From the NCBI GenBank assembly GCA_021788565.1, contig JAJYKO010000099.1:1-11078 (forward strand): a stretch of 11,078 nucleotides of DNA. Direction: 5' to 3'. The position numbers and the translations under genes are program-made. Of the stretch, positions 288-11,078 are shown piece after piece. Source of the DNA: Chloroflexota bacterium (GTDB taxonomy: Bacteria; Chloroflexota; UBA6077). Position 1 is the first letter of the stretch. Each line of letters begins with the position of its first letter. The notes beneath the pieces are model-generated. The model was not told where the DNA came from. It was given only the letters and a program-made list of their open reading frames with translations, and ran no database searches.

Positions 288-341
288 AAAGTGGCGGGGG
301 ACAGATTTGAACTGTCGACCAAGGGCTTATGAGTCCCCTGC
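288..341. repeat. attL: left copy of the 54-bp att core
   Basis: Base-for-base identical to 10729-10782. It contains, on the minus strand, the tRNA 3' part: anticodon arm with CAT, T-arm and 3' acceptor strand, plus AAA/TTT beyond the discriminator base. Identity stops at 287/288 on the left and 341/342 on the right. It is inferred to be the tRNA 3' end displaced when the element integrated. Confidence 0.85.
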
Positions 342-497: not shown

Positions 498-519
498 GAT
501 ACTGTCGTGATGCTGTCAG
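498..519 (+). repeat. Left candidate integrase arm site (22-bp repeat)
   Basis: The block GATACTGTCGT plus GATGCTGTCAG matches 10589-10610 at 20 of 22 bases in the same orientation. Each copy is itself a tandem of a roughly 11-base GATGCTGTCA-type unit. Placement near both element ends fits arm-type binding sites of the split integrase. A dispersed operator is the alternative. Confidence 0.6.
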
Positions 520-2634: not shown

Positions 2635-3603
2635 TTACCCCGCTCGCGAGTATGGCACATGGAGCAGGTGTGCTGCCTTCTTCTTGGCTGCTTCCCCGCG
2701 ACGGTCGTACCTCGCTGTAGTCTGGACGTTGGAGTGGCCGGCCATGTGCTGCACAGTAACGATGTCTGCTCCCGAGTCCAGCAGGTCGCCGATGAAGGTC
2801 CGGCGCAGGTCGTGTGGCGAGCAGTCCTTCACCCCTGCCTGCTTCGCCCGCTTGACCAGCATGAACCGGACTACCTGAGGGGTCATCTGCTGCATCAGGA
2901 GTCGCCCACCCTTATTGATCGGGCAAAACAAGGGCCCTGGCTCGTCGCCCCTTACCTTCAGCCAGTCAGCTAGGGCGTCTAGGCTTCCGTTGTTCGCGTA
3001 GACTGTCCTGTCCTTGTGGCCTTTGGCTGCACGGATACGAAGCTCTCCCGTCTCCACGTCCACGTCGTTCAGGTCCAGGGCGGCAATCTCTGATCGTCTC
3101 AAGCCCGCCGCATAGAGCAGCGCAAAGATCGCTGCGTCTCTGTATCCTGCCAGCTTCTCATCGGCACAGCAGGCCGACAGGATAGCTCCGATCTCCCTGT
3201 GTTGAAGGGCACGGCCTCGAGGCAGTGTAGTCCCCTTGACAGTCTCCAAATCGACTGCCCTGTGGTACTCCTCCGCTCCCATCTGCCCGAGGCGCCACGA
3301 CTCCTTCAGCACACCACGCAGAGCTGCGAGCATCTTGTTGGCGGTGGCGGGAGCATATCTCTCGGCCAGTGATGTTCGCACAGCCTGTGTATGCTGGTAG
3401 CGCAGGAGGTGCCAGGGCAGAGACTCAGCGTTGCTTGCTCTGCCGCTGAGGATGACAGCAATGGTATCCAGAGCCTCACGCATGGTGCGGCGGCTACCAG
3501 GGGCCAGCCTGGCGATGTAAACGGCAGCAGGGTGCTGGTCGGCAGAAACCTGCCCCCCTGCCAGGAGTTCTTGGGACTGAACCGCGGCAAGCTCCGTATC
3601 CAT
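2635..3603 (-). CDS. Tyrosine recombinase (XerC/D-like), intact
   Basis: Site-specific DNA recombinase of 322 residues. It should cut and rejoin DNA at paired sites through a tyrosine-phosphodiester intermediate. The N-terminal half (about 25-125) is the helical core-binding domain; the C-terminal half holds the complete catalytic set: R169 (in AAGLRRSE), K194, H264 and R267 (HDLRRT), H290 (GHS) and Y299. Length and architecture resemble Xer-type enzymes; it lacks the N-terminal arm-binding domain seen in the split integrase elsewhere in the element. The ATG at 3603 is preferred because GGAGGG lies five bases upstream. A longer frame back to 3690 is excluded since it would begin upstream of the promoter. 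A TTGACA-N17-TATAAT promoter drives it. It may resolve multimers of the replicating form, invert DNA, or help mobility. It is the only intact recombinase of the element besides the IS transposase. Confidence 0.9.
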   Translation of the reverse strand: MDTELAAVQSQELLAGGQVSADQHPAAVYIARLAPGSRRTMREALDTIAVILSGRASNAESLPWHLLRYQHTQAVRTSLAERYAPATANKMLAALRGVLKESWRLGQMGAEEYHRAVDLETVKGTTLPRGRALQHREIGAILSACCADEKLAGYRDAAIFALLYAAGLRRSEIAALDLNDVDVETGELRIRAAKGHKDRTVYANNGSLDALADWLKVRGDEPGPLFCPINKGGRLLMQQMTPQVVRFMLVKRAKQAGVKDCSPHDLRRTFIGDLLDSGADIVTVQHMAGHSNVQTTARYDRRGEAAKKKAAHLLHVPYSRAG

Positions 3604-3623
3604 CGTTACCCTCCGTCCATATT

Positions 3624-3639
3624 GAGAAGAGACCTTCTC
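3624..3639 (-). promoter_or_regulatory. 5'-leader hairpin of the tyrosine recombinase mRNA
   Basis: GAGAAG-GTCT-CTTCTC forms a perfect 6-bp stem with a 4-base loop. It lies between the predicted transcription start (about 3651) and the GGAGGG ribosome site (3609-3614). It could be a repressor operator or an mRNA stabiliser; nothing in the sequence decides which. Confidence 0.4.
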
Positions 3640-3657
3640 GTTATCTATTATGTGCCC

Positions 3658-3686
3658 ATTATAGCTATCAAGAGAGTAGATGTCAA
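3658..3686 (-). promoter_or_regulatory. Consensus sigma70-type promoter for the tyrosine recombinase
   Basis: Read on the minus strand, TTGACA (3686-3681) and TATAAT (3663-3658) are separated by exactly 17 bases, so both hexamers are perfect. Initiation is expected near 3651, about 48 bases before the ATG. Confidence 0.8.
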
Positions 3687-4000
3687 TCATTTGGATCGGG
3701 AATGAGTAGCAGAATGTGGCCCCCGCGCGGCTTGGCCCGACCCGATGAGGTGAGCGCTGGCCTTCTAGGTCCCATTTTGGGTGCTCGCGACCTGCTGATT
3801 GTTTCGCGGGTTACTGCCGGAGACTCAAGTCGTCACCACGCGCAGAGAGGTGCGAGTTCCAGTAGGCGGTATGATTTATCTCAGGCATGTGCGCTAGATA
3901 CTTTAGCTGTGCGGTAAGGCCAATAGAGTGAAGAAAGTATCTGACGCATACGTGCTGGATATTAGGCTAGAATGCGATACAGGGATTATAAAGATGCCTA

Positions 4001-4606: not shown

Positions 4607-4738
4607 GCGCAATTTAGTCTCCTTTTCTGTCTTTTTCAGAGAGGATAGACACGATAGGCATATGGATTTCGATCTGGCCCGTGCCAGGCATTTAGTGTGA
4701 GGAGGCAACCCATCATAAATTCGCGAGAGGACTGCATA

Positions 4739-6235
4739 ATGGACGACAAAGCCACTTTAGCGGCTGTTCCCACAACGGAGATGCGTCAGCCTGCTTCTGT
4801 TCGTCCGGATGCCTCGGGTCAGCCCGGAGCCCAGAAGGACGAGAGCCGCAGGTTGGCGGTTGCCTTGTGGGATGCCTTCGTGCCGGAGGGACCGACGGTG
4901 CTCGGGCAGAAGGGGAGGTGGTCGATACGGAACAAGAAGATGACCTATGGCGACTACGTTCAGCTTCAGCTGAAGGACCTCGTTTCGCATGTGCATGGTC
5001 ACAGCTACCTGGCGCTCAGGCCGCTGCAGGAGGAGCGTGCCTGGTGGCTTGGGATAGATGTGGACACCACAGTGCTCGCCGTTGTCGAGGAAGTTTCCCG
5101 GAAGCTGGATGAGGTGGGCCTTCCGTTCATCCTGAATTTCTCGGGAAACAAGGGCTATCACTTCTATATCCTGTTCGCTTCGCCACTGGAGGAATTGCGG
5201 TACGCAAGGTTCCGGAAACAGGTCTATGACCTTGTCGGCGACAAGGCCGACGTGGTAACAACCGGCAAGCAACGTCTATCTCTACCATGTGGCGTCCATC
5301 CAGGCACCGGCAAGGGGTCAGGCTTCGTAGATAGGTACACCTTGGAATTGCTTTCGCAAGAGCAACAGATACAGCTTCTGCAAAGCGGGCCACGGGCGGA
5401 TGTGGTGGAATGCGTAGCCAACTCCATGTTCGTAGAAAGCACGGAGCCAGGAGCGAAGGAACTCAAGGTCATTGAGAGGCTCCATCCATTTCGCGAGTGC
5501 ATCAACGTCTTGTGGCGCGATGGGTTGCAGGAGCCTGACACCAGGCATTACGCCTCGTTGGCAATCATAGCCGCTGTCAATAACAGTCCGGAGATACCCG
5601 AGCCTGACCGGCTGAACTACGTGCTGGACTGGGTTGCCCCCAATCACGTGACGGCGGAGAAGTCAGGGCTTGTGGAGTCCGACCTCAAGTTCGCTTTGGA
5701 AGAGGCCGAGCGGCTTATGCACTACGTTGGTACACAGTACAAGCCGACCTGCCACAACTCTCTCTTTGCAAAAGGCTTGAAGAGCGCCTGCACTCCCGAG
5801 TTCGCTGTCAAATGCACGAAGCGGAGTGCGGATATGGTAGGGAAGGAAGCCCCCTGGGTGGTGGCGCTTCAACATTCCAAGATTTGGGGCAAGCTTGGAT
5901 GGGCAACGGGTGCCGTGTACAGCACTATTGCGTCCATCGCCCTAGACAGCGGCAACAAGTGGGACGGCATGCCGGTCATGCAGCTTCACCAGACCACGTT
6001 GGCGGAGGATGTAGGCGTGCATGCAAACACGGTCAGGGAGTCGCTCAGGAAGCTCCGGGAGGTCGGATTGATCATGCCAGTCCCAGCCGGTGCATTGCCT
6101 GAGCGCAGCTTCGGCAGCAAGAAGCCCGCAAAGGCTTATGCCGTACCAGAGGTGACGGAAGAGACGATGGCTGAGATAGTAGGGCGAGTTCTCTTTCGTC
6201 CTCGCCCTACTCTACTACGGACTACTACTAGGTAG
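4739..6235 (+). CDS. Archaeo-eukaryotic-type primase-polymerase with winged helix
   Basis: Likely replication primase-polymerase of the element, 498 residues. The ATG at 4739 is chosen because AGAGG lies eight bases upstream; the in-frame GTG at 4697 has no ribosome site. The first part (about 60-215) carries the three signatures of the AEP fold: metal-binding D107-x-D109 in WLGIDVD, SGNKGYH with H141, and LPCGVHPGTGKG, matching the LP-x-x-x-H-x-x-TG pattern of archaeal PriS. The middle (about 245-365) is helical, with FRECI, RHYASLAI and four cysteines at 254, 338, 351 and 359. This recalls the iron-sulfur C-terminal domain of primase large subunits, though the last spacing is short. The third part (about 375-480) is a winged-helix DNA-binding domain with its HTH near 414-450. 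It stands alone downstream of a structured noncoding region and is convergent with the integrase. Such stand-alone AEPs are known on plasmids and integrated elements. Confidence 0.85.
   Translation: MDDKATLAAVPTTEMRQPASVRPDASGQPGAQKDESRRLAVALWDAFVPEGPTVLGQKGRWSIRNKKMTYGDYVQLQLKDLVSHVHGHSYLALRPLQEERAWWLGIDVDTTVLAVVEEVSRKLDEVGLPFILNFSGNKGYHFYILFASPLEELRYARFRKQVYDLVGDKADVVTTGKQRLSLPCGVHPGTGKGSGFVDRYTLELLSQEQQIQLLQSGPRADVVECVANSMFVESTEPGAKELKVIERLHPFRECINVLWRDGLQEPDTRHYASLAIIAAVNNSPEIPEPDRLNYVLDWVAPNHVTAEKSGLVESDLKFALEEAERLMHYVGTQYKPTCHNSLFAKGLKSACTPEFAVKCTKRSADMVGKEAPWVVALQHSKIWGKLGWATGAVYSTIASIALDSGNKWDGMPVMQLHQTTLAEDVGVHANTVRESLRKLREVGLIMPVPAGALPERSFGSKKPAKAYAVPEVTEETMAEIVGRVLFRPRPTLLRTTTR
6178..6211 (+). 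terminator. Stem-loop at the 3' end of the primase gene
   Basis: Perfect 11-bp arms AGTAGGGCGAG (6178-6188) and CTCGCCCTACT (6201-6211) with a 12-base loop, inside the last codons. Smaller hairpins follow at 6220-6237 (GACTAC/GTAGTC) and 6239-6262. None has a clean T-tract, so this may protect the mRNA 3' end rather than terminate it. Confidence 0.4.
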
Positions 6236-6453: not shown

Positions 6454-6619
6454 TCATACGGTGCCGCCTGCCATCCGCTGGAGGGCTTGGGCGGCTAGTT
6501 GATCAGCACCCCCCAGAACATGACTGTACACCCTCATGGTTATCATTGGGCTGCTGTGTCCGGCTCTCGCCTGCGCCATACGCGCTGGCACGCCGGACAT
6601 TGCCAGGATAGAGATGTGG
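6454..6619 (-). pseudogene. Integrase 3' fragment cut off by the IS21 element
   Basis: On the minus strand from 6619 the frame reads on from residue 322 of the split integrase to a TGA at 6456-6454. It includes the catalytic GHSS (H343) and the nucleophile in RVYSH (Y353), and ends ALQRMAGGTV at residue 376. Joining 10566-9602 to 6619-6454 gives 1,131 bases, exactly 377 codons including the stop. The fragment has no start of its own and is presumably untranslated. Confidence 0.92.
6614..6619. repeat. Left target-site duplication of the IS21 element (ATGTGG)
   Basis: ATGTGG occurs here and at 9596-9601, immediately outside the two IS ends. Six bases is within the 4-8 bp usual for IS21-family insertions. 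The duplication is intact on both sides, so the insertion has not been rearranged since. Confidence 0.9.
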
Positions 6620-6673
6620 TGTCAGCAACGGTGAGAAACTCCCGAAAAGCACCGGTTTGAAATTCCCCACCCG
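6620..6673 (+). repeat. IS21 left end with two 24-bp terminal repeats
   Basis: After the terminal TGTCAG come two 24-base units, 6626-6649 (CAACGGTGAGAAACTCCC...) and 6650-6673 (CACCGGTTTGAAATTCCC...), the first diverged. They match the inverted units at the right end and are expected to be transposase-binding sites. Confidence 0.8.
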
Positions 6674-6683
6674 AGTAGACTTT

Positions 6684-6701
6684 CCAGCCAGTAATGGCTG
6701 G
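6684..6701 (+). promoter_or_regulatory. GUAA-tetraloop hairpin overlapping the istA ribosome site
   Basis: CCAGCCA-GTAA-TGGCTGG gives a perfect 7-bp stem closed by a GNRA-class tetraloop. G-U and A-U pairs (to about 6681/6704) can extend it over the GGAGG at 6701-6705. It could hold istA translation down. The ATG at 6694 lies inside it and lacks its own ribosome site. Confidence 0.45.
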
Positions 6702-6711
6702 GAGGAGAGGA

Positions 6712-7977
6712 GTGCTAAGGGTGGACGAATGGGTGGCCATCCGAGAGATGGCGAGGCAAGGGGTATCGCTCAGCGAGATTTCGCGGCGGACTGGGAGGGA
6801 CCCGAAGACGATCAGAAAGGTGCTGGAGGAGACGACGCCGAGGACGCACCGGAGGATCGAGAGGCCGAGGGCGACCAGGCTTGCGCCATTCAGGGATTAC
6901 CTGCTGGAGCGCATCGAGCAGGGGTGCACCAACGGGGTGGTGCTCCTGGAGGAGATCACCAGGCGGGGATACGCCGGCAAGATCACGGTGCTTCGCGAGT
7001 TTCTGCACCCGATCAGGCAGGAAATCGTTCGCAAGAGGGAGGCGGCGGAGCGGTTCGAGACCGCTCCTGGCAAGCAGGCTCAGGTGGACTGGGGGGAGTT
7101 CGGGAAGATCTACGACTCACGTGATCGCCGCTGGAGGAAGCTGTACGGGTTCGTCTTGACGCTGTCCTACTCGCGGGCAGCGTATCTGGAGTTCACCACC
7201 TCGGCCGACATGGAGCACTTCCTTGCCTGCCACATCCATGCCTTCGAGGCCCTCGGCATCGCCGAGACGGTGCTCTACGACAACCTCAAGACGGCCATTC
7301 TGGGCAGGAGGGCCGACGGGAGCCCCATCTTCCCTGGGCGTTTCCTCGACTTCGCCCTGTACTACGGCTTCAGCCCTCGCTTCTGTGCCCCCTACCGAGC
7401 GAGAACTAAGGGGAAGGTGGAGCGGACGATAGGCTACGTGCGCGGCAACTTCTGGGTAAGGGTTGCCAGGGAGGTGGAGAGCGGAGAGCTGGGGCTTGCC
7501 TGCTTGAACGAGCGGGCCGCCGAGTGGGCGCTGGGCGTCGCCAACCAGCGCGTCCACGGGACTCACGGGCTTGTGGTGGCCGAGCGGTATGCGGAGGAGG
7601 AGCCGATGCTCGGCCAGACGTACGGCCGGCCCGCCTACGACACCGATTACTGCGCCGTTCGCCGCGTGGGACGGGATGGCCGCTTCTCCTATCGGGGAAG
7701 GCTCTATCAACTCGGCCTCGTCCACGCCCTGTCCGAGGTGGAGGTGGCCGAGAGCTTGGAGGGGGCTCTCACCGTTCGCGCTAGCGATGGGCAGCATCTC
7801 AGATGCCGAGCAGTGGAAGGGGAGCAGGCGATGGAGCGAGCGCGGGCGCCGAGGCGGGAGGGGAATGGGACGGCGGAGGGTGAGCTGCTCCACCTCCTCG
7901 ACGGAAGCCAGGAGGTGGAGCTTCGCGATCTGGCTGTCTATGAGGAGGTGGCTCATGCAGCAGCCTGTGCTCGTTGA
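6712..7977 (+). CDS. istA: IS21-family transposase IstA
   Basis: DDE-type transposase that cuts and joins the IS ends, with IstB as partner; about 421 residues. GTG 6712 is chosen because GGAGG (6701-6705) is six bases upstream and the protein then starts near the usual family N-terminus. ATG 6694 and GTG 6721 are in-frame alternatives. An N-terminal HTH (about 4-40) carries VSLSEISRRTGRDPKTIRKV. The catalytic triad is D126 (QVDWGEF), D190 (LYDNLKTA) and E237 (KGKVERTIGY), normal for IS21, followed by a beta-barrel C-terminal region. The last 23 bases overlap the start of istB, indicating coupled translation. No frameshift or stop is seen. Confidence 0.95.
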   Translation: MLRVDEWVAIREMARQGVSLSEISRRTGRDPKTIRKVLEETTPRTHRRIERPRATRLAPFRDYLLERIEQGCTNGVVLLEEITRRGYAGKITVLREFLHPIRQEIVRKREAAERFETAPGKQAQVDWGEFGKIYDSRDRRWRKLYGFVLTLSYSRAAYLEFTTSADMEHFLACHIHAFEALGIAETVLYDNLKTAILGRRADGSPIFPGRFLDFALYYGFSPRFCAPYRARTKGKVERTIGYVRGNFWVRVAREVESGELGLACLNERAAEWALGVANQRVHGTHGLVVAERYAEEEPMLGQTYGRPAYDTDYCAVRRVGRDGRFSYRGRLYQLGLVHALSEVEVAESLEGALTVRASDGQHLRCRAVEGEQAMERARAPRREGNGTAEGELLHLLDGSQEVELRDLAVYEEVAHAAACAR

Positions 7978-8749
7978 GGAGCGTGTCCGAGCGGGGCTCG
8001 ACCGCTTGCGCTTGGTCAGGATCGCTGAGGTGCTAGATAGGGTGTGCCAGGAGGCGACGAGGGAGAACAGGAGCTACCTGGAGTTCCTGGACGAACTGCT
8101 GGGCGAGGAGCAATCCTCCAGGTACGAGCGCAACGTGGCGATCAAGACTAGATTAGCGCATCTGCCCTACCACAAGACGATGGTCGACTTTGATTATTCC
8201 TTCCAGCCGAGCATCGACAAGCGTCAGATCGCCGAGCTGCTCAGCCTTCGCTTCGTCGAGTATATGGAGAACGTGGTGCTGCTCGGCCCTCCCGGGGTGG
8301 GTAAGACCCACATAGCGGTGGCGCTTGCGCTGGAGACGATCAAGCGGGGATACACCGCGTACTTCGTGACCATGCAGCGGCTCATCGACTACCTCTCCGA
8401 GGCTGATGCCGCGGAGCCACTCAGGGTGCGCATGGGGGTGCTGTTGCGGCCCAAGCTCTTGGTGATCGATGAGGTGGGCTATCTTCCCCTGGATAGAAGG
8501 GCCGCCAACTGGTTCTTCGAGCTGGTCTCAAGGAGATATGAGCGCGGCTCGGTGGTGCTCACAAGCAACAAGAGCTTCGGAGATTGGGCGAGCCTCTTCC
8601 CTGATGTGGCGATAGCATCCGCCATCCTGGACAGATTGCTGCACCACTCGACCACCATCAACATCAGGGGCGGGGAGAGCTACCGGCTCAAGGAGAAGCG
8701 GCGGGCGGGACTCCTGTCCAGGGTGGAGGGGGAGAGCAGCCATGACTGA
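7955..8749 (+). CDS. istB: IS21 helper ATPase IstB
   Basis: AAA+ ATPase that assembles on target DNA and regulates IstA during IS21 transposition; 264 residues, about the family's usual length. ATG 7955 is chosen for AGGAGG (7943-7948) six bases upstream; the upstream in-frame ATG at 7940 overlaps that site. Walker A is GPPGVGKT (111-118), Walker B LLVIDE (168-173), sensor 1 TSN (203-205), and an arginine sits in DRLLHHS (R227). The N-terminal helical part (1-100) is typical of IstB. It overlaps istA by 23 bases and the next gene by 8. Confidence 0.95.
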   Translation: MQQPVLVEERVRAGLDRLRLVRIAEVLDRVCQEATRENRSYLEFLDELLGEEQSSRYERNVAIKTRLAHLPYHKTMVDFDYSFQPSIDKRQIAELLSLRFVEYMENVVLLGPPGVGKTHIAVALALETIKRGYTAYFVTMQRLIDYLSEADAAEPLRVRMGVLLRPKLLVIDEVGYLPLDRRAANWFFELVSRRYERGSVVLTSNKSFGDWASLFPDVAIASAILDRLLHHSTTINIRGGESYRLKEKRRAGLLSRVEGESSHD

Positions 8750-9131
8750 CAGGCAAGCCGAGGAGAGCGCCACCATGGCCGAGCACTTCTGCCCGTCGCG
8801 TAACGATGGCGTAACGATCAGTCAGGTGAACTGTCTGGTGTGCGGCCAGCCATTCCATCCATCAGGCCGGCGCCGCTTCTGCTCGGATGCCTGCCGGCAG
8901 GCCGCCTGGCGACATCGCCACTCCAACTTGAAGGAGCTGACGCCGCTGGCGAATGGCGTGCCTCGGTCAGGGACCGTCTACGAGTGCCCGTCCTGCGGAT
9001 CTCGCTACCTCGGCGAGCAACGCTGTCCGGACTGCCAGCTCTTCTGCCGGAGGATAGGTCCGGGCGGCCGCTGTCCCCACTGCGACGAGCCGGTGGCCAT
9101 CGCCGATCTCGTTGCCGAGGGGGAAGGGTGA
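8742..9131 (+). CDS. Zinc-ribbon protein carried as third gene of the IS21 element
   Basis: A 129-residue protein of unknown function with three cysteine clusters: C31-x2-C34 with FCSDAC (C47, C51), C82-x2-C85 with C95-x2-C98, and C111-x2-C114. The first resembles the CxxCGxxF...FCSxxCR zinc finger common in small bacterial proteins. The ATG overlaps the istB stop by eight bases and follows a GGGGGAGAG ribosome site, so it is translated in the IS operon. An in-frame ATG at 8775 is an alternative. It lies inside the IS boundaries and moves with it. It might be a DNA-binding accessory or regulator, which is inference. Confidence 0.75.
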   Translation: MTDRQAEESATMAEHFCPSRNDGVTISQVNCLVCGQPFHPSGRRRFCSDACRQAAWRHRHSNLKELTPLANGVPRSGTVYECPSCGSRYLGEQRCPDCQLFCRRIGPGGRCPHCDEPVAIADLVAEGEG

Positions 9132-9517
9132 TGCCATCCGGCCAACCAGAAAGGAGAAACCGCAGGTCGGGGCGCCAAGCGACGGGCTGTTACGTCCCCC
9201 GGGGGCGGGATGCTGCACGCGCTCGTTCCCTGGCTCTGAGTCTCGGGTATGCTGGGAAGGGCTTTGGGTTTATCGCTTTTCGGCCGTGGTATCTGAAAGG
9301 GAAGCGGAGCGGGAGAGTCCTGCCCTACCCCTCGCACGGCCCCTGGGTCGGCGCTCGGGTCCGTCCGCAGCGGGCGACGGCGAAGCCGCGCTCGTCACGA
9401 CTGCCCTATCCTCCGCCAAGGCTCGGCCATGATGCCACAAGGCAGGCCCGAGCAGACAGACCTCGCCACATCTCAAATTGGGAGATGCCCGCCGATCAAG
9501 AGCCGCCGGCGATGGCA
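9132..9517. other. Noncoding tail of the IS21 element
   Basis: No confident gene. A plus frame continues from an ATG overlapping the zinc-ribbon stop (9131) but reads through the terminal repeats and off the IS end to 9640, so it is not accepted. A small hairpin CATCTC/GAGATG (9469-9474 and 9482-9487) lies near the end and may stop transcription before the transposase-binding repeats. Confidence 0.45.
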
Positions 9518-9595
9518 AAGCTAGGGAATTTCAAACCGGCGATTTTGGGGAAATTCAAAGCGGTGATTTCACGGAATTTCAATCCGGTGTTGACA
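9518..9595 (-). repeat. IS21 right end with three 24-bp terminal repeats
   Basis: Read from the end inward on the complement: TGTCAA, then units starting CACCGGATTGAAATTCC (9589-9566), CACCGCTTTGAATTTCCCC (9565-9542) and CGCCGGTTTGAAATTCCC (9541-9518), at exact 24-base period. On the plus strand the last six bases read TTGACA, an outward -35 hexamer. Confidence 0.85.
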
Positions 9596-9601
9596 ATGTG
9601 G
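9596..9601. repeat. Right target-site duplication of the IS21 element (ATGTGG)
   Basis: Second copy of the 6-base duplication, immediately after the IS right end and inside the codons following HDLRH of the integrase. Confidence 0.9.
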
Positions 9602-10566
9602 AGGTGCCGAAGGTCGTGGACGCGTATCGCGGGTAACTGAAGGTTGCTACAGAGCGCCTGGAGGCTTCTTCGTAGATTGGATGGGCTGGGCGCACTGCCG
9701 GCATTGCTTGGGAAAACCTGGTCACCGCCTAGCCAGCCTGCTCCGGCTTTCAGCCGCCACTCCGCTACGAGCGCCCGCTGCTGGTGCAAGAGAGCCATCC
9801 CCCATTCAGGGATGGTAAGGCTGCGCACCCCGCTCTTGGTCTTCGTAGGTAGCTGCACAGGCTTGTTGCTGACCCATGTCGTCTGCCGCTCGATGCTCAC
9901 CCTCTTTGACTCCCAGTCTATGTCCGTCCAGAGTAGGCCCAATGCTTCTCCCTCCCTGCAGCCACTCGCCAGCAAGAACCCGAACATCGCTGAGTACTGT
10001 CCGCCGACACCTTCACCAACGGCTCTAATTAAGGTAGTCACCTGTCCCAGAGTCCACAGTTCCGGCTCTTCGGCGTCCGGTCTAGGGGCTTCCACTTGCT
10101 CCGTCACGTTGCTGGCTATAAGGCCCCAGCGCACAGCGTCTCCAAGGGCCTTGTGCAGAAGGCGGTGCACCATCTGGACGCGCCGTGGACTCAGGTTGGA
10201 CTTTGAGAGACTGGAATAGAGGTTGGCCAGTTGGAGTGGCTGAAGCTTGGACAGCTTCATGTGGCCGAGGTTGGGGAGAACGTGGCATCTGTTGATTGCT
10301 TTGTAGCTTGCCGCAGTTCCAGGGCGAAGCCGTGACTCGGACTGTGTGATCCAGTCCTCCATGAACCCCGATAAGGTCAGCTTGCCTGCCGATGGGAGCC
10401 TTCCTGAGCCTCGAATCTGCTCGGTCAGCTTGCGCAGCTTCTCAACAACTTCGGTTCGTGTCCGTCCGTAGACCTGCTGGCGCTTGCCTCCTACCTGGAG
10501 GCCGGCTGTCCACCGACCGTCGGCTCTCTGGTAAATGCTGCCTTCTCCACTACTGCGACGAGCCAT
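9596..10566 (-). pseudogene. int: Element integrase (tyrosine recombinase), split by the IS21 element
   Basis: 5' part of the element's integrase, which would join attP to the tRNA-Met site. From the ATG at 10566 it has an N-terminal arm-binding domain (GSIYQRADGRWTAGL, about 9-24), a SAM-like core-binding domain (about 63-150) and the catalytic domain, with R204 (SGCREGE), K244, and H317 and R320 in HDLRH. At residue 323-324 the frame enters the IS end and continues as IS-encoded sequence to 9496 (356 residues), lacking the H343 and Y353 now at 6454-6619. Without the tyrosine it should be catalytically dead. Removing the IS and one TSD copy restores 376 residues in frame. It sits beside the tRNA and behind a 22-bp repeat 22 bases upstream of its start. 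Confidence 0.93.
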
Positions 10567-10588: not shown

Positions 10589-10610
10589 GATGCTGTCATG
10601 ATGCTGTCAG
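10589..10610 (+). repeat. Right candidate integrase arm site or int operator
   Basis: GATGCTGTCAT plus GATGCTGTCAG, a tandem of two 11-base units, matching 498-519 at 20 of 22 bases. It lies 22 bases upstream of the integrase ATG and 119 bp from the right core, so bound integrase could both assemble the att complex and repress its own gene. Confidence 0.6.
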
Positions 10611-10728: not shown

Positions 10729-10782
10729 AAAGTGGCGGGGGACAGATTTGAACTGTCGACCAAGGGCTTATGAGTCCCCTGC
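10729..10782. repeat. attR: right copy of the 54-bp att core
   Basis: Identical to 288-341. Here the core is contiguous with the tRNA 5' half, so the gene remains whole after integration. The minus-strand T-run directly after the tRNA 3' end can serve as its transcript end. Confidence 0.85.
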
Positions 10783-10804
10783 TCTGCCACTGAGCTACCC
10801 CGCC
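10733..10804 (-). tRNA. tRNA-Met (CAT), elongator type, intact
   Basis: A 72-base cloverleaf on the minus strand: acceptor GGCGGGG/CCCCGCC perfect, D-stem GCTC/GAGC, anticodon loop CTCATAA with CAT, T-arm GACAG-TTCAAAT-CTGTC perfect, discriminator A, CCA not encoded. The anticodon stem has an A-G mismatch next to the loop. The CAT anticodon could also mark a lysidine-modified tRNA-Ile, but the overall sequence is closer to elongator Met; the 1-72 pair is G-C, unlike initiators. It is the integration target of the element. Confidence 0.92.
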
Positions 10805-10916: not shown

Positions 10917-11003
10917 CCCTCTCCCAGAGGGAGAGGGGCTTCGGGCAGGGTGTCTCCCAGAGGGAGAGGGGCTTCGGGCAGGGTGTCTCCCAGAGGGAGA
11001 GGG
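10917..11003. repeat. Palindromic 33-bp tandem repeats in the right flank
   Basis: Two identical 33-base units (10921-10953 and 10954-10986) and a 17-base partial third (10987-11003). Each contains CTCCC-AGA-GGGAG, and the first extends to 9-bp arms (10917-10925 and 10929-10937). Related hairpins follow at 11017-11035 and around 11038-11050. This resembles dispersed CCCTCTCCC/GGGAGAGGG intergenic repeats of some bacterial genomes. It lies outside the element. Confidence 0.7.
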
Positions 11004-11078
11004 CGCCTGGGAAACGCCTCTCCCAAGGGGAGAGGCCGCCCGAAGGGCGGGATAGGGCGTGCTCTGCCGCAGAACTAA

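Follow-up and report, generated by a model that had tools for sequence, protein, structure and literature searches.

An AEP-type primase with a four-cysteine PriCT/PriL-like domain and a winged helix on a small tRNA-integrated element of Chloroflexota

Can the catalytic part of a primase and an iron-sulfur-type domain of its large subunit occur in one chain on a small bacterial element, and what would such a protein do there? The question is raised by a gene in an 11,078-nt stretch of DNA from a Chloroflexota bacterium (the window). From the letters alone, the initial annotation had described its product as a PriS-like archaeo-eukaryotic primase (AEP) domain followed by a PriL-like cysteine domain and a winged helix, and had called such a natural small/large-subunit fusion on a bacterial mobile element notable. 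In this study, the order of an AEP, a four-cysteine domain of the PriL Fe-S type and a winged helix, in a single protein on a mobile element, is supported, while the likeness to PriS gave way to another affiliation. The protein may tie together two primase parts that are usually treated separately.

The primase gene and its catalytic domain

4739..6235, + strand: primase gene, 498 aa, consisting of an AEP, a four-cysteine PriCT/PriL-like domain and a winged helix (ORF list, Pfam, homology to L081, Foldseek)
4835..5428, + strand: AEP (Prim-Pol) catalytic domain, residues ~33-230, with D107, D109, H141 (in SGNKGYH) and D198 as candidate third acid (Pfam, NCBIfam, PDB, Foldseek, alignments)

The gene is an intact open reading frame, and the frame, catalytic motifs and cysteine positions given in the initial annotation were all found in its translation. 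GAGAGG lies at 4725-4730, upstream of the ATG (read by eye), and an alternative GTG start at 4697 would give a product of 512 aa. The catalytic motifs are D107-x-D109, SGNKGYH from residue 135 and LPCGVHPGTG at residues 182-191; D198 was picked as the candidate third acid by eye, from alignments to the PDB CAPP chains and to the Chloroflexota homologue L081, which is described below. With hhhDhD and SxH motifs and a Prim-Pol fold, the core belongs to the AEP superfamily.

Within this superfamily, the domain is closest to CRISPR-associated Prim-Pol (CAPP) and AEP-TOTE, and not to PriS as had first been suggested. CAPP (PMC8211822; PDB 7nqd/7nqe/7nqf/7p9j) is the nearest AEP both by sequence and by predicted fold: the PDB CAPP chains scored 22.8 bits, and the structure model had its best Foldseek match in CAPP (E 3.1e-8). 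The Pfam family AEP-TOTE (PF22548) scored 26.7 bits, just below its cut-off of 27, and reached 45.9 bits in L081. The PriS profile DNA_primase_S (PF01896) gave no match to the window primase at E<=1 in the Pfam scan. In the published description, the AEP of CAPP is also followed by a PriCT-type domain with conserved cysteine residues (PMC8211822). Unlike CAPP, the window primase carries a C-terminal winged helix and resides in a tRNA-integrated element, the scanned window ORFs hold no recognised TPR or cas gene, and the NCBIfam CAPP model NF040561 scored only 37.2 bits, against a cut-off of 200.

The four-cysteine domain and its relation to PriL

5456..5854, + strand: four-cysteine helical domain, residues 240-372 (alignments, profile and spacing comparisons)
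5498..5500, + strand: codon of Cys254, candidate cluster ligand 1 (L081 alignment, pattern read)
5750..5752, + strand: codon of Cys338, candidate ligand 2 (L081 alignment, pattern read)
5789..5791, + strand: codon of Cys351, candidate ligand 3 (L081 alignment, pattern read)
5813..5815, + strand: codon of Cys359, candidate ligand 4, two residues off in L081 (L081 alignment, pattern read)

The cysteines of the protein are residues 184, 225, 254, 338, 351 and 359. The first two lie inside the AEP or just past it, and the other four fall within residues 250-365, with the step of 84 residues from C254 to C338 that had been pointed out before. Since a C-x-C-C-C arrangement arose by chance in 3.3% of shuffled primase tails under loose spacing ranges and in 0.9% under tight ones (5000 shuffles), the four cysteines by themselves are only mildly unusual, and their conservation in L081 is the stronger point. 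This homologue (E 1.1e-27, 32% identity, aligned over residues 76-451) came from a search of 400 Chloroflexota genomes, 12 of which matched at E<=0.01, the other 11 at E 0.001 or worse. C254, C338 and C351 occupy identical columns in the two proteins and the fourth cysteine stands two residues earlier in L081; R269-H270 and W298 are identical as well. Structure prediction of residues 240-370 was of low confidence throughout (pLDDT 29-66), and the fold search with the window model was filled by AEP matches.

Profile searches extended the family. A profile of the window and L081 matched 6 of 393 genomes of the class of L081; four cysteines follow the AEP in L081, L099, L100 and L101, the last three having matched over AEP columns only, and L102, a frame interrupted by stops, was left out of the cysteine reading. 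A wider profile found 44 matches at 30 loci in 30 of 400 genomes (E<=1e-5), and a motif script recovered the AEP ORF in three of these loci (L104, which is L081 again, L105 and L133). Another wider profile search matched 19 of 386 genomes at 20 loci; of the 16 that went through the motif script (L182-L197) it recovered five, of which L182, L183 and L197 show the pattern. A search in the Paenibacillus phylum matched 17 of 169 genomes at 15 loci, with three recovered and the pattern in L204, and among 14 loci in viral contigs it is present in L138, L143 and L144. Relatives with C-x69/70-C-x8-C-x3/4-C are spread over Chloroflexota, Bacillota and viral contigs. The pattern is absent from the viral loci L134-137, L140 and L141, from Staphylococcus plasmid proteins and from L103/L184, L105/L185, L205, L207 and L215; the viral loci L139 and L145-147 stop too early for it to be read, and the viral L142, which resembles HCTV-1 by eye, has it in loose form only. 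Because the motif script overlooked many ORFs, these counts give no overall frequency of the pattern. The cysteines, whose loss in homologues would have told against the initial annotation, are kept in L081 and in a subset of the wider relatives.

Some members of this wider set differ in build. L138, L143, L144 and L204, from viral contigs or the Paenibacillus phylum, combine the AEP and four cysteines with a long C-terminal region that resembles a helicase (mostly by eye). L215, a 448-aa frame from the Paenibacillus phylum, has by eye an AEP-like segment, followed by a PriCT-like one that lacks the cysteines and an end resembling a winged helix. A loose cysteine pattern in L080 was taken as chance, the tail having 13 cysteines and failing the tight pattern.

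Other searches returned less. With the window protein as query, genome_contigs and viral_contigs yielded no relative, and neither did viral_contigs with A1, L081 or L100. In the protein database, the window's own protein was the sole match (1 of 7997 and 1 of 2937 scored candidates), also with a two-row alignment (1 of 7998 candidates); these protein-database negatives are weak, because the two-row alignment returned no L081-like protein either.

The order of the four conserved cysteines is 1 + 3 in the window, in L081 and in a subset of the relatives. Across the 11 domains of A5/A6, nine have spacings of 69/70-8-3/4, L081 has 79-12-5 and the window 83-12-7, a departure from the wider family in which the spacing is expanded in both the window and L081. 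Archaeal PriL was sampled from 60 genomes, 58 of which matched PF04104; 30 loci were taken, and in 29 of them a motif defined by PPC plus four cysteines, with generous limits, reads as C-x67-71-C-x8-C-x5-7-C (70-8-6 in 17 domains, 71-8-6 in nine, and 67-8-6, 70-8-5 and 71-8-7 in one each). From its sixth row on, A5 consists of domains picked for four cysteines, which makes cysteine invariance there not independent; R269 and W298, which were not selected for, are invariant in A5 as well.

Profile comparison with hhalign aligned the 11-row family, window and L081 included, with PriL at 78% and E 1.7e-5 over 83 columns (reversed PriL, 0.15), the first cysteine falling on the first cysteine. The nine rows without the window and L081 gave 44% and E 2.4e-4 (reversed, 0.21), the window together with L081 4.4% and E 0.0093 (reversed, 0.27), and the window domain alone 0.7% and E 0.076 (reversed, 0.19); an earlier domain cut gave similar values. 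The wider family profile therefore matches the PriL Fe-S domain and the window's own does not: the direct profile match to PriL that the initial annotation had proposed to look for was not obtained, and the Pfam family for the PriL Fe-S domain (PF04104) was not matched by the window's domain. Against the other nine family domains, the window and L081 together were not significant (E 0.3). Column shuffles (2000) gave 0.11 for the window, 0.0035 for L081 and 0.004 jointly against the family HMM, and 0.17, 0.08 and 0.07, respectively, against the PriL HMM. With the HMM of the window and L081, p was at most 0.045 for the family domains L099, L100, L101 and L144 and 0.115-0.405 for the remaining five, while among 12 of the 29 PriL domains three had p 0.04-0.05 and the rest 0.06-0.545.

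As the window's own domain is not significant against either PriL or the family, the case for it rests on a chain of sequence comparisons, in which the step from the window to L081 is strong, that from L081 to the family moderate and that from the family to PriL good. The middle step is helped by the collinear position of the domain behind a homologous AEP. Via these intermediates, an Fe-S domain in the window primase is probable. Only the C-terminal Fe-S half of PriL is represented, no counterpart of the N-terminal half having been recognised. What stands of the proposed small/large-subunit fusion is an AEP joined to a PriL Fe-S-type domain. A strict PriS-PriL fusion was rejected, because the AEP is CAPP-like and no N-terminal half of PriL was recognised.

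The same cysteines might bind zinc, or have a purely structural role, the domain being an ordinary one of PriCT type with a chance resemblance to the PriL spacing. Zinc modules are described as common among AEP proteins (PMC5862659), metals are indistinguishable from sequence, and the window itself shows an altered spacing and a PriL signal that is not significant. However, nine family domains place the first cysteine 69-70 residues before C-x8-C-x3/4-C, which is the PriL Fe-S layout, and the family profile matches PriL. We consider the zinc reading unlikely and favour a cluster-binding domain.

Pfam PriCT_1 (PF08708) covers the four-cysteine region above its cut-off in L099, L100, L182, L138 (49.7 bits) and L143; in L183 and L144 the score falls short of it, and Pfam listed no such match for L101, L081 or the window. 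In a model of L182, residues 231-300 are helical (pLDDT 71-90) and residues 301-331, with the last cysteines, are at 35-62; the fold search with this model had no PriL Fe-S chain among the rows shown, most of which cover residues 7-213 only and barely sample the cysteine domain. Homology between PriCT domains and the PriL Fe-S region has been proposed by Kazlauskas et al., with PriCT-2 aligning two of the four cysteines (PMC5862659). Proteins with all four PriL-spaced cysteines flanking the PriCT_1 region are the sort of intermediate to be expected on this proposal. Among the titles and abstracts listed by our literature searches, none dealt with four-cysteine PriCT_1 domains in bacterial elements. 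We give even chances to the broader view that PriCT-1 is the PriL Fe-S domain, that bacterial mobile elements hold a broad pool of single-chain primases in the cluster-binding form, that PriCT-1 domains without cysteines arose after cluster loss, and that the window-like subset combines this domain with a winged helix for origin binding, in very small elements integrated at tRNAs.

The winged helix and the integrative element

288..341: left att repeat, 54 bp, in which the tRNA-Met 3' part is duplicated (repeat search)
498..519: candidate arm-type integrase site with putative role, 22 nt, 91% identical to 10589-10610 (repeat search)
848-2293, + strand: DUF6056 gene, apparent cargo (Pfam)
2635..3690, - strand: second tyrosine recombinase (ORF list, Pfam)
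5876..6148, + strand: winged-helix region of the primase, residues ~380-470 (Pfam, structure model, Foldseek)
~6454..6579, - strand: separate piece like a tyrosine-recombinase C-terminus, beyond the insertion (limits approximate, by eye)
6606..9585, + strand: IS21-type insertion (ORF list, Pfam, repeats)
6606-6667 and 9524-9585: inverted arms of the insertion (repeat search)
6694-7977, + strand: IstA, within the insertion
7955-8749, + strand: IstB, within the insertion (start chosen by eye)
8742-9131, + strand: zinc-ribbon-like ORF, 129 aa, cysteine-rich, at the end of the insertion (weak zinc-ribbon hits below the Pfam cut-off)
9496..10566, - strand: tyrosine integrase ORF with IS21-type end sequence in place of its own C-terminal end (ORF list, Pfam, repeats)
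10589..10610: candidate arm-type integrase site with putative role (repeat search)
10729..10782: right att repeat, 54 bp, overlapping tRNA-Met (repeat search)
10732..10804, - strand: tRNA-Met (cat), integration target (tRNA prediction)

Several Pfam HTH models fall on residues ~413-449 of the primase, all below cut-off. The modelled winged-helix part (pLDDT 57-83) matched domains of plasmid initiators (5kbj, 4pql, 4pt7) and regulators such as CodY in Foldseek, at E above 0.01. The gene resides in an integrative element at tRNA-Met, bounded by identical direct att repeats and carrying a tyrosine integrase. Relatives of the integrase were found at 3 loci in viral_contigs (27-35% identity), and those of IstB at 70 loci in many phyla, with best segments 41-96% identical. 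On the minus strand at 292-378, the left att repeat and the next bases give a weak tRNA score of 29.4 bits (cut-off 29), by which the element end partly mimics a tRNA 5' half. Outside the right att site, a 50-nt repeat occurs at 10920-11035 in three direct copies that overlap at a spacing of 33 nt, the third being 76% identical.

No replication origin was found in the element and no iteron-like array near the primase gene, the sole three-copy family there (18 nt, 72-78%) having its copies 61 and 567 nt apart. Two promoter-like and three terminator-like sequences were counted, close to what shuffled DNA gives (means 1.2 and 2.3).

L081 resides in a comparable setting, an element of 9.5 kb at tRNA-Lys (G053, L093) with 53-nt repeats that are 98% identical and genes for an integrase, NERD, PH-like, zinc-ribbon and terminase-small-subunit-like proteins. 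The terminase-small-subunit-like gene (L093:8959-9453, - strand) stands beside the L081 primase. Such a gene in a small tRNA element recalls some phage satellites. Serine recombinases are carried by two further relatives, L198 and L203.

Proposed function and known systems

We consider it fairly likely that the window primase is the replication initiator-primase of this small integrative element, with a 4Fe-4S cluster in its cysteine domain. Once the integrase had excised the element at the tRNA, the winged helix would bind the element's origin and the AEP would synthesise a primer. The four-cysteine PriCT/PriL-type domain, stapled together by the cluster, would act as a lid on the catalytic core and grip the first nucleotide by its triphosphate, a role assigned to it here as proposed for Pri2/PriX and for the C-terminal domain of CAPP, for which a model with a Pri2/PriX-like role is reported (PMC10345425). 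Replication would then be completed by the host's helicase and polymerase. No helicase-type gene besides the IstB ATPase was recognised by Pfam in the seven window ORFs scanned; since ColE2 Rep is described as unwinding DNA with PriCT-1 and HTH alone (PMC5862659), helicase-free unwinding may also be open to the window primase. Counted against the initiator-primase reading are the missing origin, the interrupted integrase and the several AEP relatives without cysteines (Staphylococcus plasmids, L103/L184, L105/L185, L215). With a single-chain enzyme of ~440-500 residues, what the Fe-S cluster does in a primase could be tested directly, no separate PriL subunit being needed.

The primase could instead be a CAPP-like repair or defence enzyme carried as cargo and not the element's replication protein. 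Its AEP does score with CAPP and TOTE conflict-system models, and PADLOC gave RT_UG10_large as best (E 3.2e-6, residues 111-163 only) along with an adaptation PrimPol (E 1.6e-5, residues 115-214). However, neither cas nor any other defence protein was recognised in the seven window ORFs scanned (Pfam; PADLOC on the primase alone), and L081 shares both the winged helix and the tRNA-integrated setting; the relative L198 adjoins RusA, UvrD-type helicase and PD-(D/E)XK genes, and L200 a UvrD-type helicase gene. We regard carriage as cargo as improbable. That gene and element are decaying relics, their product no longer made or used, is suggested by the IS21-type insertion in the integrase and by protein-database searches yielding the window's own protein only, but is equally improbable given an intact ORF, kept catalytic motifs and cysteines conserved with L081.

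The initiator-primase has precedents. PolpTN2 of the Thermococcus plasmid pTN2, compared here by its description (PMC3973330, PMC5862659), likewise joins an AEP, a PriL-like four-cysteine domain and a winged helix on a mobile element; the purified protein is reported as light brown and as an AEP-PriL-type fusion (PMC3973330). In contrast to the window primase, PolpTN2 is archaeal and of ~923 aa (as judged from the name of a deletion), carries PriCT-1 as a domain of its own and positions that match both halves of PriL, where the window has one compact domain, and is described with a glutamine where the CAPP/TOTE-type AEP of the window keeps the motif II histidine. The AEP of the PolpTN2-like family is of the PrimPol-PV1 type. 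N. equitans and the Bacillus provirus phBC6A51 are also named as fusions (PMC3973330). Thermus phage TSP4 QAY18124.1 and halovirus HCTV-1 gp95 are, like the window protein, compact, with AEP-type motifs (by eye) and a C-terminal PriL-type Fe-S region. TSP4 has a bacterial host, but its protein of 338 aa stops after the cysteine domain, and both viruses are large and tailed, whereas the window holds a small tRNA element. Given PolpTN2, phBC6A51 and TSP4, together with the cysteines in the PriCT of CAPP, the window protein is a variant and no new category of AEP/PriL-type fusion; a fusion of this kind does lie on a mobile element, whose residence in a bacterium is judged from homologues, but PolpTN2 and TSP4 precede it and its architecture is not unique.

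Two further groups share parts of this build. RepE/RepS, PrimHYQ and ColE2-type initiators, as described in PMC5862659, combine an AEP, PriCT-1 and HTH with no helicase, as in the window, and that description of them makes no mention of Fe-S cysteines. The AEP-TOTE proteins of Staphylococcus plasmids (WP_063278522.1 and relatives; AEP-TOTE 47.3 bits) are similar in length to the window primase and weakly similar in the AEP (E 0.1), but unlike it do not have the four-cysteine pattern. Finally, an archaeal 879-aa frame (G761:C1:944959-945255) matches only positions 91-204 of the 266 of PF04104 (E 1e-7) and may be a PolpTN2-like fusion.
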